NCBI GenBank assembly: GCA_030637775.1
Contig: DAOWFY010000040.1
Span: forward strand, 1-6,011
DNA: 6,011 nucleotides
Origin: DAOVGU01 sp030637775 [NCBI: bacterium]
GTDB taxonomy: Bacteria > Ratteibacteria > UBA8468
Reading direction: 5' to 3'
Below the pieces are notes generated by a model. It was not told the origin of the DNA. It did no database searches and worked only from the letters and a program-made list of their open reading frames with translations. Shown here piece by piece: positions 1,139 to 6,011 of this stretch (within the stretch, counting starts at the first letter, position 1; each line of letters begins with the position of its first letter). The translations under genes and the position numbers were made by a program.

Positions 1139-2560
1139 TTATCTCTTCTGACAATATTTATCAATTGCTCGGGCAGCCTTCTTCCCTGCCCCCATCGCCG
1201 AGATAACGGTGGCGGCTCCGGTAGCAATATCCCCTCCAGCAAAGAGGCCCGGCACATTTGTTTCTCCGGTCTCTTCATTGACGATGATATTGCCAATTCT
1301 GCCGGTCTTCAGACCAGAGGTACTTTGCGGTACCAAGGGGTTAGGTCTTTGTCCAATGGCAATCACCACCGTATCAAAGGGAAGAGAGAATTCTGAACCC
1401 TTTATGGGAACGGGGCGAGGTCTACCAGAGCTATCAGGAGAACCCAATTTCATCTTAATAAGTTCTATTCCCTTTACCCAATTTTTTTTATCTCCTAAAA
1501 TTTCAATAGGAGCTACCAAAAAATAGAATTTTATTCCTTCCTCCCTTGCATTCTCATACTCCTCTCTTCTTGCCGGCATCTCCTCTTCACTACGACGATA
1601 AAGCACCGCTACTTTGCTACCCATCCGCAGAGCCGCTCGGGCTGAGTCCATCGCCACATTGCCTCCACCAATTACGGCTACGTTCTTGCCAATGTTAAGC
1701 GGAGTTTCATATTCGGGAAAGAGGTATGATTTCATAAGATTTGTCCGGATCAAGAATTCATTGGCTGAATAGACCCGATTAAGCCATTCTCCTTCTATTC
1801 CCAAGAACATCGGCAAGCCTGCTCCTGTCCCTACAAAGACCGCCAAGAATCCTTGAGAAAAAAGCTCCTCGATAGTAAATATCTTTCCGATGACCATATC
1901 GGTTTTAATCTCCGCACCCAAATCCTTAATCGAGGCAATTTCCTCCTCTACTATCTTTTTAGGCAATCTAAATTCAGGAATACCATAGAAAAGCACCCCT
2001 CCTGGAAGATGAAGGGATTCAAAGACGGTTACCGAATAACCTGCCTTGGCTAAATCTGCAGCACAGGTCAGTCCCGCCGGTCCCGAGCCAATCACAGCAA
2101 TCTGACACGAAGTGTCACCCTGAGCCCTTGGCGAAGGGTCTCTGAGATTCTTCGCTTCGCTCAGAACGACTTCGTCGTTTTTCCTCTCCCAATCGGCAGC
2201 AAACCTCTCCAATGCTCCAATCGCTACAGGCCTCTCTTTTTTTGCCAAGATACAGGTCTTTTCGCACTGGTCCTCCTGGGGGCAGACCCGACCGCAAATG
2301 CCAGGAAGACTATTCTTCTCCTTTAAAGTGGCAATAGCCTGGCTAAAGTTAGAATCTCTGATTTCTTTAATAAATTTTGGAATATCGATCTCCACCGGGC
2401 AACCCTCAATACAGAACGCTTTTTTACACTGAAGGCAGCGAGCGGCTTCCCGAACTGCCTGCTCTTTGCTATATCCAAGGGCTACCTCATTGAAATTCCT
2501 GATACGAACTTTTGGATCCTGCTTGGGCATCGGCTCTCTGCCATGTTTTACAGTAACCAT
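1139..2560 (-). CDS. gltD: GltD-type Fe-S flavoprotein oxidoreductase (glutamate synthase small-chain family)
   Basis: This family moves electrons between NAD(P)H, FAD and [4Fe-4S] clusters, as the beta subunit of NADPH glutamate synthase, as the stand-alone archaeal-type GltA, or as NfnB/sulfide dehydrogenase. The protein is 473 residues. The N-terminal Fe-S domain has C42-x2-C45-x4-C50-x3-C54 and C89-x3-C93-x5-C99-x3-C103. The FAD Rossmann motif GSGPAG is at 158-163. The NADPH-binding GGGNVA is at 298-303, followed by YRRSEEEMPARREE (321-334). The C-terminal FAD segment NVPGLFAGGDIATGAA spans about 435-450. Residues 128-152 are encoded by a 75-bp palindromic insert (see repeat), in the linker between the Fe-S and FAD domains, so no catalytic motif is hit. 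No glutamate synthase large subunit or NfnA-like gene adjoins, so the exact reaction is open. The start is uncertain: ATG at 2560 lacks a ribosome binding site, while ATG at 2530 (Met11) has only a weak GAGAG. The PMP-QDPKVR segment at 10-18 resembles family N-termini. Family confidence is high; substrate confidence is low. Confidence 0.93.
   Translation of the reverse strand: MVTVKHGREPMPKQDPKVRIRNFNEVALGYSKEQAVREAARCLQCKKAFCIEGCPVEIDIPKFIKEIRDSNFSQAIATLKEKNSLPGICGRVCPQEDQCEKTCILAKKERPVAIGALERFAADWERKNDEVVLSEAKNLRDPSPRAQGDTSCQIAVIGSGPAGLTCAADLAKAGYSVTVFESLHLPGGVLFYGIPEFRLPKKIVEEEIASIKDLGAEIKTDMVIGKIFTIEELFSQGFLAVFVGTGAGLPMFLGIEGEWLNRVYSANEFLIRTNLMKSYLFPEYETPLNIGKNVAVIGGGNVAMDSARAALRMGSKVAVLYRRSEEEMPARREEYENAREEGIKFYFLVAPIEILGDKKNWVKGIELIKMKLGSPDSSGRPRPVPIKGSEFSLPFDTVVIAIGQRPNPLVPQSTSGLKTGRIGNIIVNEETGETNVPGLFAGGDIATGAATVISAMGAGKKAARAIDKYCQKR
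2104..2178. repeat. In-frame palindromic repeat insert inside the gltD-like gene
   Basis: This 75-bp stretch is four consecutive small hairpins. GACAC/GTGTC (2104-2116, loop GAA) and ACGAC/GTCGT (2166-2178, loop TTC) form the two ends. Between them are CCCTT/AAGGG (2125-2138) and TCTGAG/CTCAGA (2141-2165). The two end hairpins are similar in form, and the ends share inverted ACGAAGT/ACTTCGT. Its length is a multiple of three and it stays open in the gltD frame, encoding roughly Asn128-Cys152 with the core peptide LSEAKNLRDPSPRAQGD. From memory, the GAGCGAAGCGAAGAATCT core resembles intergenic repeats common in genomes of uncultured and anaerobic bacteria; I could not search for this. The insert falls in the variable linker before the FAD domain, where it would be tolerated. 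Confidence 0.75.
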
Positions 2561-2666: not shown

Positions 2667-4251
2667 TAATGATGGTGTTCTTCCTCCATTTTTTCTCGTC
2701 CTTTTCTGGGAAATCAAGTCGAAAATGAGCCCCTCTACTCTCCTGCCGCTTCAGCGCACTCTCGGTAATAAGAAAGGAGGTAATCAACATATTCTGCATT
2801 TCCCATCCTCTGAGAGTCGTGCGTAATGTCCTTAAAGCATACTTTTGCCAAAAGCGAATCTTCTGTAGCGCCTCCTCCAATCCATTTTTCTCTCGCTCAA
2901 TTCCTACATTCCTCCACATCAAAACACGTAAGGACCTCTTAAGATCAGAAAGGTCAAAATGTTTTCTTTCCTCCCATCTCCCGGAAAAGGAAATCTGAGG
3001 AATTTTAATGCCTTTTTTCTCTATGCTTTTCCCCGCATTCCTTCCCGCACGATAACCAAAAACAAGGCATTCCAATAAGGAATTGCTTGCCAATCGATTA
3101 GCACCATGAATGCCACCCTCGGCTGTCTCTCCACAGGCATAGAGGTTTTCAATATTTGTTCTGCCGGTTAAGTCTATTTTGATTCCACCCATAAGATAAT
3201 GGGCGGCAGGACGCACAGGAATAGGATCTTTGGTGATCTCTAAACCATAATCGGAACAGACCCTTCTGATATGTGGAAAACGTTTCTTGGTGAATCCTTC
3301 ATTGAAGGAGGTCAAATCCAAATAAACACAGTTGCCTTTGGTTTTCTTCATTTCATTCAAAATTGCTCTGCTAACGACATCCCGGGAAGCAAGCTCGGCA
3401 AGTTTATGATAATGTTGCATAAACCGTTTCCCTTTTTTATTAACAAGGATTGCTCCTTCTCCTCTTGTTGATTCAGAAATGAGAAATCTTGGAGTACCGG
3501 CAAGGTAAAGGGCGGTGGGATGAAATTGAAAAAATTCTAAGTTAGATAGAGTCGCTCCGGCACGATAAGCAATCGCCAAACTATCTCCCGTGGAAACAGA
3601 GGGATTGGTCGTTTCCTGGTAGAGTTGACCCGCCCCCCCGGTAGCTAAGATAACCTTTTTGGCAATGATCGCCTTTATCTCCTTTTTAATACCATCAAAG
3701 ATTATCGCGCCAAAAACTTCCCCTCCCTGATGAAGAAGATCAATGAGAAAGAGGTTTTTAATAATGCGGATCGCGGGATTTCTTCTCACCTCCTCCAAGA
3801 GAACTCTCTCTATCTCTTTACCGGTAGCATCTCCTCGGGCATGAATGACTCTACCTCTTGAATGGGCACCCTCTTTAGAAAAACTAATTTTTCCTTTTAT
3901 ATGATCAAAATTTGCTCCTTTTTCGATTAAATCCTTTACCCGCCTGACACCTTCTCTTACCAATAGTTCTACCGCAGTCCTATGCGAAAGACCCTCTCCA
4001 CACCTGAGGGTATCTTCAAGATGAAGTTTCCAGCTGTCCTCTCTTTTTAAAGTAACAGCGATACCTCCCTGAGCATTGGAAGAAGCATTCTCATCTATCT
4101 TACCTTTAGTAATAATTAAGATCTTACCGTAGTCGGAAGCAGCGAGCCCACTGGTGAGACCAGCAACTCCACTGCCAACTATCAGAATATCGGTTTTTAG
4201 TTGGGAAAGATGGGAAAGATTAAAATTAATCAGATAATCCGGAACAATCAT
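2659..4251 (-). CDS. nadB: L-aspartate oxidase
   Basis: NadB oxidises L-aspartate to iminoaspartate, which NadA condenses to quinolinate for NAD synthesis; oxygen or fumarate can reoxidise its FAD. The protein is 530 residues, full length for the family. The FAD motif GSGVAG is at 26-31, SSNAQGGIAV at 57-66 and EGAHSRGRVIHARGDATG at 127-144. HPTALY starts at His244 and SRDVVSRAI carries Arg290. HYLMGGI starts at His351, and GETAEGGIHGANRLASNSLLE spans 374-394 with Arg386. His244, Arg290, His351 and Arg386 match the active-site residues reported for the E. coli enzyme, even in numbering. The C-terminal helical domain ends with ESRGAHFRLDFPE (504-516). These features separate it from succinate dehydrogenase and fumarate reductase flavoproteins. 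The start is ATG at 4251, with an in-frame TGA two codons upstream and GGGAG 11 nt before it. The stop lies inside palindromic repeat copy 2, so the last residues (KR) are repeat-encoded. nadA and nadC are not adjacent. The cellular electron acceptor would be fumarate if the host is anaerobic (inference). Confidence 0.97.
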   Translation of the reverse strand: MIVPDYLINFNLSHLSQLKTDILIVGSGVAGLTSGLAASDYGKILIITKGKIDENASSNAQGGIAVTLKREDSWKLHLEDTLRCGEGLSHRTAVELLVREGVRRVKDLIEKGANFDHIKGKISFSKEGAHSRGRVIHARGDATGKEIERVLLEEVRRNPAIRIIKNLFLIDLLHQGGEVFGAIIFDGIKKEIKAIIAKKVILATGGAGQLYQETTNPSVSTGDSLAIAYRAGATLSNLEFFQFHPTALYLAGTPRFLISESTRGEGAILVNKKGKRFMQHYHKLAELASRDVVSRAILNEMKKTKGNCVYLDLTSFNEGFTKKRFPHIRRVCSDYGLEITKDPIPVRPAAHYLMGGIKIDLTGRTNIENLYACGETAEGGIHGANRLASNSLLECLVFGYRAGRNAGKSIEKKGIKIPQISFSGRWEERKHFDLSDLKRSLRVLMWRNVGIEREKNGLEEALQKIRFWQKYALRTLRTTLRGWEMQNMLITSFLITESALKRQESRGAHFRLDFPEKDEKKWRKNTIIKR

Positions 4252-4262
4252 TTTTCATCTTT

Positions 4263-4267
4263 CTCCC
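4263..4267 (-). promoter_or_regulatory. Probable ribosome binding site of nadB
   Basis: GGGAG on the minus strand lies 11 nt before the nadB ATG, slightly far but the only candidate. An out-of-frame ATG sits between it and the start (ATGAAAAATG). That would open a 10-codon mini-ORF overlapping the nadB start, which might lower initiation. Confidence 0.5.
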
Positions 4268-4274
4268 AAGGCAA

Positions 4275-4405
4275 GGAAGTTTCCTGAAGCGTGCCTTGTT
4301 AGCGACGAGCGGGCACGGTGTCCGCCAAAGGCGGACGAGTGAGGAGCAACGAGAGTGCAGATTCCCTCGCCGGGGAAATCAAACGTGCCGCTGAAGGGAA
4401 CTTCC
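4275..4405. repeat. Hairpin-rich spacer element with imperfect terminal inverted repeats
   Basis: Most of the ilvD-nadB spacer is one structured block that looks more GC-rich than its flanks. Its ends resemble each other in inverted orientation: GGAAGTTTCCTGAAGCG at 4275-4291 against GGAAGTTCCCTTCAGCG on the minus strand at the other end, about 14 of 17 matching by eye. Inside are three hairpins: CGTGCC/GGCACG (4290-4317), GTCCGCC/GGCGGAC (4320-4336) and GATTCCC/GGGAAATC with one bulge (4360-4380). No target-site duplication is evident, no protein frame is convincing, and no T-run follows any stem. It could be a non-autonomous repeat of the genome or a transcript-processing or insulating structure. 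Confidence 0.5.
4320..4336. other. Perfect 7-bp hairpin in the ilvD-nadB spacer
   Basis: GTCCGCC and GGCGGAC flank a 3-nt loop, giving a very stable GC-rich stem. It lies 77 bp past the ilvD stop in transcription order. The sequence after it on the minus strand is ACACCGTGCCC, with no U-tract, so a standard intrinsic terminator is not supported. Confidence 0.6.
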
Positions 4406-4413
4406 GAGCCTCC

Positions 4414-6011
4414 TTATTCTTTCAGAACCGCACCACTGCTCGCAGAAAGAACCTGCTTACTATAATGGTAAAGATAACCTTCCTTAATCTTTGGCCCGGG
4501 TGCCTTCCATAAGGAGAGACGTTTCTTTATCTCCTCGGGAGTGAGTTTCAGATTTAACTCTCTCTTCGGAATATCAATTTCAATAAGATCTCCATTGCGA
4601 ACAATGGCGATCGGTCCTCCCTCTGCTGCCTCGGGAGAAATATGTCCAATGGCTGCTCCTCGTGTGCCCCCAGAAAATCTGCCATCGGTGAGAAGAGCGA
4701 CCTCTTTATCAAGACCTATTCCCGCAATGGCCGAGGTTGGAGAAAGCATCTCCCTCATTCCCGGACCTCCCTTTGGCCCCTCATAGCGAATGACAAGTAC
4801 TTCTCCTTTTCTTATCTTTTTCTTCATGATCGCCGCCATTGCCTCCTCTTCACTTTCAAAAACCCTGGCGGCTCCGGTATGCTTTAGCATCTCCAATGCC
4901 ACGGCAGATTGCTTCACCACCGCCCCTTCGGGAGCTAAATTCCCTTTTAAAATTGCCAGTCCCCCTTCCGCAGAGTAAGGCTTTTCTATCGGCCTGATTA
5001 CTTCATTGTCGAGCACTTTACTCTGAGAAATATTTTCTCCCACACTCTTCCCCGTCACCGTCATTACCTTTAAATTAAGTAGCTCCTGCCGGGCAAGTTC
5101 TGACATTACCGCAGCTACCCCACCGGCGCGGTGTAAATCTTCTAAATGAAAGGCTCCCGCCGGAGAAAGCCGACAGAGATTGGGAGTGCTTTTAGAAAGC
5201 TGGTTAAAAAGTTCCAGGTCCAATACTACCTTTGCTTCCTTAGCAATAGCCGGTAGATGCAAGACTGTATTGGTTGAGGCTCCTAAAGCCATCTCCACCC
5301 TGATGGCATTTTTGAAAGCGGCCAAAATTGCAATATCTCTGGGCCGAACATTCCTTTGATAAAGTTCCATGATCCTGGCTCCGGCATATTTCGCCAATCT
5401 CTTTCTCTCTGCCATCACCGCAGGAATTGTGCCATTGCCAGGTAGAGCCAATCCCAAAGCCTCGGAAAGACAGTTCATAGAATTAGCCGTAAACATTCCC
5501 GAGCAGGAACCATATCCAGGACAGGCACTATCTTCAAGAACTTTTAACTTCTCTTCCGTCATTTTCCCGGATGTAAAACTACCTACCGCTTCGAAAACAG
5601 AGATAAGGTCCAGAGCTTTGCCCTGGAAATAGCCGGCCAACATTGGACCTCCAGACACCAGGATTGCCGGAATGTTAAGCCGCAACGCTGCCATCAGCAT
5701 TCCCGGAACAACCTTATCGCAATTGGGAATAAGAACCAAACCATCAAAAGGATGCGCCATAGCCATTGTCTCAATAGAATCGGCAATCAGTTCCCGACTG
5801 CAGAGAGAATATTTCATTCCTGAATGACCCATTGCTAAACCGTCGCAGACGGCAATGGTGGAGAACTCCACCGGTAGCCCCCCGGCACTTCTTACTCCTG
5901 CCTTTACGCTCTTCGCGATTTCATCAAGGTGAATATGGCCAGGAACAATCTCATTGCTTGAGTTAGCAATGCCAATGAAGGGTTTTTTTATCTCGCTATC
6001 GGTATCACCCA
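4414..6011 (-). CDS. ilvD: Dihydroxy-acid dehydratase, 5' end cut by window edge
   Basis: IlvD dehydrates 2,3-dihydroxy-isovalerate and 2,3-dihydroxy-3-methylvalerate to the 2-oxo acids that precede valine, isoleucine and leucine, using an Fe-S cluster and Mg2+ in the cytoplasm. The frame is open to the right edge: 531 complete codons are visible, so roughly 20-30 N-terminal residues are missing. Counting from the first visible codon, motifs are [17 protein letters not shown] (12-28), CDG (55-57), PNCDKVVPG (95-103) with the cluster Cys97 and the Asp/Lys of the metal site, [14 protein letters not shown] (167-180) with cluster Cys169, [13 protein letters not shown] (409-421) and TDGRFSGG (441-448) with the family's catalytic Ser446. 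PGH at 23-25, where [2Fe-2S] enzymes carry a Cys, suggests the oxygen-labile [4Fe-4S] class. SLCSRE at 68-73 has Cys where Pro is usual. The GTG at 5871 is internal, not the start. ilvD rather than edd is favoured by the overall motif wording. nadB follows after 162 bp. Confidence 0.96.

Follow-up and report, generated by a model that had tools for sequence, protein, structure and literature searches.

The GltD-like locus

The window analysed here is a stretch of 6,011 nucleotides from a draft genome of an uncultured candidate phylum (G000; 1.4 Mb in 177 contigs). It contains a frame of 473 amino acids that scores 575.2 bits against the TIGR01316 profile over residues 16-469 (curated cut-off 471.75) and matches the Pfam families Fer4_20 (residues 19-129) and Pyr_redox_2 (residues 153-459). 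The best solved relative is PDB 4ylf_B (E 1.6e-165), and from these profile and structure matches we read the product as a putative NfnB. The gene and the features within it are as follows:

1139..2560, minus strand: GltD/NfnB-like NADPH-dependent oxidoreductase gene, the 473-aa frame that carries the repeat
2192..2560, minus strand: Fe-S domain part, residues 1-123, conserved (Fer4_20)
1142..2101, minus strand: FAD/NAD(P)-binding part, residues 154-473, conserved (Pyr_redox_2)
2102..2191, minus strand: interdomain linker, residues 124-153 (30 aa), delimited by homologue comparison and pLDDT
2103..2179, minus strand: repeat-derived block of 77 bases, residues 128-152, delimited by genome copies and hairpins
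2144..2170, plus strand: palindromic unit 1, arms ATTCT/AGAAC, from the pattern match, arms and fold
2114..2142, minus strand: palindromic unit 2, arms ACCCT/AGGGT, from the pattern match, arms and fold
2165..2179, either strand: outer half-palindrome AACGAC-GAA-GTCGTT, the same 15 bases in the related genome G003 and with one change in G002
2103..2117, either strand: outer half-palindrome on the TGACAC-TTCG side (TGACACGAAGTGTCA), also present beside other copies

Residues 128-152 are read from the block on the minus strand with no stop codon, and both flanks of the open frame align to TIGR01316 and to solved homologues. Within the block, units 1 and 2 lie tail to tail with a half-palindrome at each end, and the terminal hairpins have perfect 6-bp arms (2103-2108/2112-2117 and 2165-2170/2174-2179). 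The centre of unit 1 is GCGAAGC, the sequence of a DNA mini-hairpin reported to be extraordinarily stable (PMC4686876, excerpt). Folded as single-stranded DNA, positions 2095-2185 reach -19 kcal/mol; shuffles average -11.26 (z -3.52), and 1 of 200 did as well. The window had no Rfam match up to E 1, and the block had none in plasmid and phage collections at E 0.01.

Linkers of ordinary homologues measure 17-23 residues (n=29: 23 from the same class, comprising 22 measured by script and G007 read from the alignment, and six from outside it). The window linker has 30 residues, about 25 of them encoded by the repeat, a net gain of about 10, which implies that the repeat took the place of most of the ancestral linker and was not simply added to it. 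Compared with G002, a sister genus of the same family, the Fe-S part is 85% and the FAD part 86% identical, and the linker 50% in an uncertain alignment. The dN/dS ratio is about 0.05 for the Fe-S part (dN 0.079, dS 1.63; residues 8-125) and about 0.06 for the FAD part (dN 0.081, dS 1.37; residues 152-470); both ratios are rough because dS exceeds 1 in either part. Judged by these substitution rates, both enzyme parts are under purifying selection. An AlphaFold2 model built from 17 sequences has a mean pLDDT of 82 and places the end of a helix at residue 127 and the start of a strand at residue 153; in between, residues 134-146 fall below 50, which suggests a disordered linker.

The initial annotation had described a hairpin block inside the GltD-like frame, and this is borne out by the arms, the fold, the open 473-aa frame and 13 copies elsewhere in the genome. 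It placed the block at 2104-2178, a stretch that is indeed repeat-derived, although the true extent is 2103-2179. It also treated the block as a clean insertion of about 25 residues, a description that does not survive the comparison of linker lengths (30 against 17-23), since most of the old linker has given way to the repeat, for a net gain of about 10. The gap that it expected in close homologues at this place is seen in the alignments, as are further copies of the block in G000 and its relatives.

Two other repetitive stretches occur in the window. Two copies of an inverted repeat lie at 1085-1129 and 2624-2666, on either side of gltD and in both cases between genes; its parts, AGGAGATGACTGGGGTTTG and AGCGAACAAACTTTAGTCATCTCT, are each 100% identical in the two. 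The interval 4281-4405, between nadB and ilvD, is repeat-like and contains short palindromic words, GTCCGCCAAAGGCGGAC among them; a search of 4250-4420 found no inverted repeat of at least 14 bases.

A palindromic unit dispersed through the genome

The block has 13 other matches in G000 at E <= 0.001, the best at 6e-19. A model built from eight copies, with an RNAalifold consensus structure used for searching alone, hit 13 places with 20 matches (E up to 0.1), and eight of these places were its own sources. Searching with a single-unit pattern gave 29 units at 24 sites and none with the reversed control pattern; two of these sites (C171 and C172) share the same flanks beside the unit and may be one piece counted twice.

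Read in gene sense, the unit opens with GTC and the first 5-base arm and closes with the second arm and CTC; between the arms, a GA on each side encloses a short, variable inner stem and loop. Units span 27-33 bp in G000. The most frequent arm pairs are ATTCT/AGAAT (14), ACCCT/AGGGT (6) and ATTGC/GCAAT (4), followed by ATTCT/AGAAC (2), ATTCC/GGAAT (2) and ATTTT/AGAAC (1). Because a MAFFT alignment of the 29 units sets the stem types against each other with a shift of one column, pairing was scored by script from the arm ends. Over 26 distinct units, pairing is kept at 126 of 130 arm positions; when second arms were shuffled, the mean was 94 and the maximum 116, and none of 10,000 shuffles reached 126. 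The unit pattern itself forces purine versus pyrimidine at some arm places and leaves the choice between two pairs free. RNA folding yields 5 bp, an internal loop and 2-4 bp closed by a loop of 3-5 bases for 21 of the 26 distinct units, and other folds for the remaining five.

The base that precedes the pattern-set GTC, itself free, makes the tag TGTC in 19/29 units of G000 and in 21/30 of those fetched from G001, a genome of the same genus, and CGTC in 2/29 and 2/30, respectively. Stems start with AT in 20/29 units, the others being six ACCCT arms and three with G for the first A, under a pattern that partly constrains these positions. The tail of unit 1 reads CTC in seven of eight BLAST copies and CCC in one; the units found by pattern say nothing on the tail, as that pattern presets CTC. 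Tail-to-tail pairs under the strict pattern occur at 5/24 sites. The consensus unit is open in 4/6 frames (counted by hand); this is near chance, and stop-free frames were therefore not counted as a sign of adaptation.

G000 carries two Y1_Tnp genes (C119 and C86), neither of them flanked by units. Both have their own terminal repeats, of the GGGGTCAG type, at both ends, an arrangement that recalls the TIR-flanked transposases reported by Di Nocera et al. (PMC3733652, excerpt). Mobilisation by a RAYT was considered and set aside, given these GGGGTCAG-type ends with no unit alongside; a transposase may act on the units in trans. Because no mobilising enzyme is tied to the repeat, insertion by repeat mobility, as put forward in the initial annotation, is something that we infer.

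The GltD linker in related genomes

The survey comprised 35 genomes of the class, all drafts, and a phylum-wide search gave the same 35. Unit counts among the relatives were 130 in G001, 82 in G004, 68 in G003, 23 in G008 and 8 each in G002 and G013; the remaining 28 of the 35 held 0-1 units, and the reversed control gave 5 hits over all 35. The GltD linker could be read in 28 genomes, those left unread being G001 (read in part), G006, G014, G017, G021, G031 and G032.

Repeat-rich genomes differ in what they carry between the Fe-S and FAD domains. G002 has a 36-residue linker that holds a unit by a looser pattern. G003, another sister genus of the same family, has a block of about 210 bases with two looser-pattern units and a C/G-rich hairpin. 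The first hairpin of the window's repeat block is common to G003 (AACGACGAAGTCGTT) and, with one change, to G002. In G001 the linker sequence differs, and the contig ends inside it. In G008, from a second family, an unrelated C-rich repeat makes up the 56-residue linker. This repeat has 29 matches within G008 (itself included), 46 in G004, 32 in G003 and 7 in G001, some of these matches being the two strands of one place; there were none in G000, G002, G010 and G012. The linker of G004 has 35 residues, and a dispersed-repeat match for it was not obtained. G013 keeps an ordinary 20-residue linker despite its 8 units.

Among readable genomes with at least 8 units, the linker is longer than 23 residues or filled with repeat in 5/6 (G000, G002, G003, G004 and G008, with G013 as the exception), against 0/22 of those with 0-1 units (Fisher p 6e-5, with kinship ignored and the five positives lying in two families). 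With its repeat-bearing linkers confined to two families, the association may go back to a small number of events.

In G003 (C62), gltD changes frame between its Fe-S and FAD halves, which are separated by a repeat block that includes a ten-G run; the cause is either a real split of the gene or a sequence error.

Repeats in polA and other genes

At three of the 24 unit sites in G000, the unit sits within a conserved gene that extends far to either side of it; these genes are gltD, polA and a pabB/C fusion, so the prediction of other in-frame copies held for the latter two. Strict units occur in polA of G000 (arms ATTCT), G001 (ATTAT) and G002 (ATTGC), in each case in the linker that follows the 5'-3' exonuclease part. 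The same gap in G008 matches that genome's own C-rich repeat (C45:8532-8565), and 21 other aligned homologues have no insert there. This alignment contained 27 loci, of which G006 (wrong frame) and G004 (3' part alone) were not counted; 3/35 genomes gave no match, and some others gave fragments.

Two further inserts were noted in polA of G000. The repeat of the second also occurs in frame in apbE of the same genome (loci on C167 and C53), with the peptide VGVG-IRP...LINQAPT, and has further short matches at C171, C12, C3 and C25. The third is rich in C and G and absent from G002 and G008; polA of G004 contains a similar peptide at this place. The recJ gene of G000 has two stretches that are missing from a solved RecJ.

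Units also supply the last residues of ribosomal protein L15 (G000:C175) and of a DegT-type aminotransferase (G000:C91), and one possibly forms the start of a PEMT-family protein (G000:C10). The other sites in G000 precede genes, fall in frames that are short or lack support, or are not in a frame at all, as judged by open frames and not by a full annotation. Of 30 units fetched from the 130 of G001, one is deep in a supported gene (a Wzy_C protein, codon 408/683, after the Pfam domain) and several others are before or near frame starts.

Origin of the linker sequence

On the sequence comparisons above, the Fe-S/FAD linker of this GltD/NfnB-like enzyme is very probably a REP-like dispersed palindromic repeat that has come to lie within the reading frame. 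Linkers in the GltD-like family do vary in sequence, and an ordinary fast-evolving linker could in principle resemble a repeat by chance. That reading has a negligible probability in view of the 13 DNA matches elsewhere in G000, with a best E of 6e-19, and of 29 patterned units whose paired palindromes show compensating changes. We also consider it very unlikely that a dispersed repeat was placed in gltD, or unlike halves linked through one, by an error of short-read assembly. All the genomes are drafts, the G001 gltD contig ends in the linker and the G003 frame breaks there; however, the Fe-S and FAD halves of one gene flank a repeat block in separate genomes, gltD is open over its full length in the window and in G002 with its two parts about equally diverged (85% and 86% identical), and polA (G000, G001 and G002) and pabB/C (G000) are likewise open through their units.

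Slightly more credible, though still improbable, is that the palindrome is kept for an action at the DNA or RNA level in the gene (mRNA stability, pausing or a protein-binding site), the linker then being a regulatory site. The conserved pairing of units would fit this, as would the RNA roles suggested for REPs (Di Nocera et al. 2013, PMC3733652, excerpt) and the many REP insertions described in the same excerpt in genes of DNA synthesis and repair, which here would correspond to polA and perhaps recJ. Yet relatives hold other arrangements or an unrelated repeat at the linker, and repeat-poor relatives none, so no one structure is conserved. The repeat probably has no role in the enzyme beyond that of a tolerated spacer.

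Under the dispersed-repeat reading, the block would be translated and kept in the protein, with repeat mobility or the exchange of copies as the source of the linker repeat. A common ancestor of the family may have acquired a repeat at this linker, as suggested by the first 15 bases that three genera share with one change, although a single ancestral insertion is unproven because G001, the genome nearest to G000, lacks this shared anchor. Other repeat copies would later have been gained, lost or exchanged there, and only variants with an intact frame and a flexible linker would have survived. Insertions that disrupt frame or fold would be selected against, which would leave surviving repeats in flexible linkers and at protein ends. 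The earlier proposal that the block is tolerated on account of its place in a linker agrees with the low model confidence in this region and with the purifying selection on the two flanking parts.

More tentatively, and with slightly less than even confidence, we suggest that certain interdomain linkers in this candidate phylum (GltD, PolA and perhaps RecJ and ApbE) are standing landing or exchange sites. Units of one family and unrelated repeat families would replace each other there, so that linker sequence and length evolve by repeat turnover and not by point mutation. Since relatives carry other repeats at the GltD hinge, tolerated spots in a protein appear to be rewritable by repeats while the enzyme stays under selection.

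Palindromic repeats within coding sequences have been described in Rickettsia and in REP-bearing species from several phyla; these observations add an uncultured phylum. They also supply a set of relatives for comparison, in which a given linker of a given enzyme is free of repeats in some and filled by different repeats in others, and which makes it possible to test directly whether such insertions are neutral, harmful or useful. As a warning for annotation, peptides that recur among predicted proteins, SEAKNLR for example, can be the translation of a repeat.

Comparison with known repeats

The units may be like the repeats of Rickettsia or the alphaproteobacterial CGTC repeats in sequence; the comparisons below concern organisation. 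In the open-licence literature, we found no report on palindromic repeats in candidate phyla, including Omnitrophota, none of the DNA and peptide words of this repeat, and, by that wording, nothing on intragenic REPs in interdomain linkers.

Rickettsia palindromic elements are 105-146 bp long and occur between genes and in frame in conserved genes (Ogata et al. 2000, via PMC2229807, excerpt), and a gmk product with such an element is reported to be active (PMC2229807, excerpt). The repeat studied here is similar in being palindromic, in lying both within and between genes and in staying in frame where it is coding. It differs in size (a 77-bp block of 27-33-bp units against 105-146 bp) and in organism, the comparison being one of descriptions. 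The parallel with Rickettsia drawn in the initial annotation is thus sound as a way of working and not as membership.

CGTC REPs carry a terminal unpaired CGTC tag, with TGTC and CCTC as variants, and stems with complementary AT at positions 1-2; they have copies in genes, among them that for DNA polymerase I, and no dedicated transposase was found for them (Di Nocera et al., PMC3733652, excerpt). Our units share the TGTC tag (19/29), dimers of unlike units, copies inside genes including that for DNA polymerase I, and the lack of a transposase beside them (Y1 type, in G000). They may also be alike in the start of the stem, which is AT in 20/29 under a pattern that partly constrains it. Unlike CGTC REPs, with stems of 8-9 bp, loops of 4-5 bases and a 3-base tail that is mostly CCA, they have 5 bp, an unpaired GA/GA step and a further 2-4 bp, and end in CTC; with stem length and tail both different, we do not file the repeat under CGTC REPs. 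Tail-to-tail pairs, moreover, are said to be rare there (PMC3733652, excerpt) and occupy 5/24 sites here.

With GTAG REPs and their RAYTs (PMC3733652, excerpt), the units share short and often paired palindromes; they lack the GTAG tag, and G000 has no RAYT gene flanked by the repeat as in a REPtron. The MITE-like RU and ERIC elements (PMC2229807, excerpt) are likewise small gene-less repeats that can be read as gene parts, and no parent transposase of the Y1 type was found in G000 for the repeat described here.

What is new is the apparent recurrent turnover of repeats at the same site in the linkers of two housekeeping enzymes across genera, and in a second family with another repeat type. 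For such same-site turnover there is one published precedent, the different REPs at about the same recB site in two Xanthomonas species (PMC3733652, excerpt). Overall, the repeat works like the Rickettsia palindromic elements and like intragenic REPs; it resembles the CGTC REPs most and departs from both in some features.
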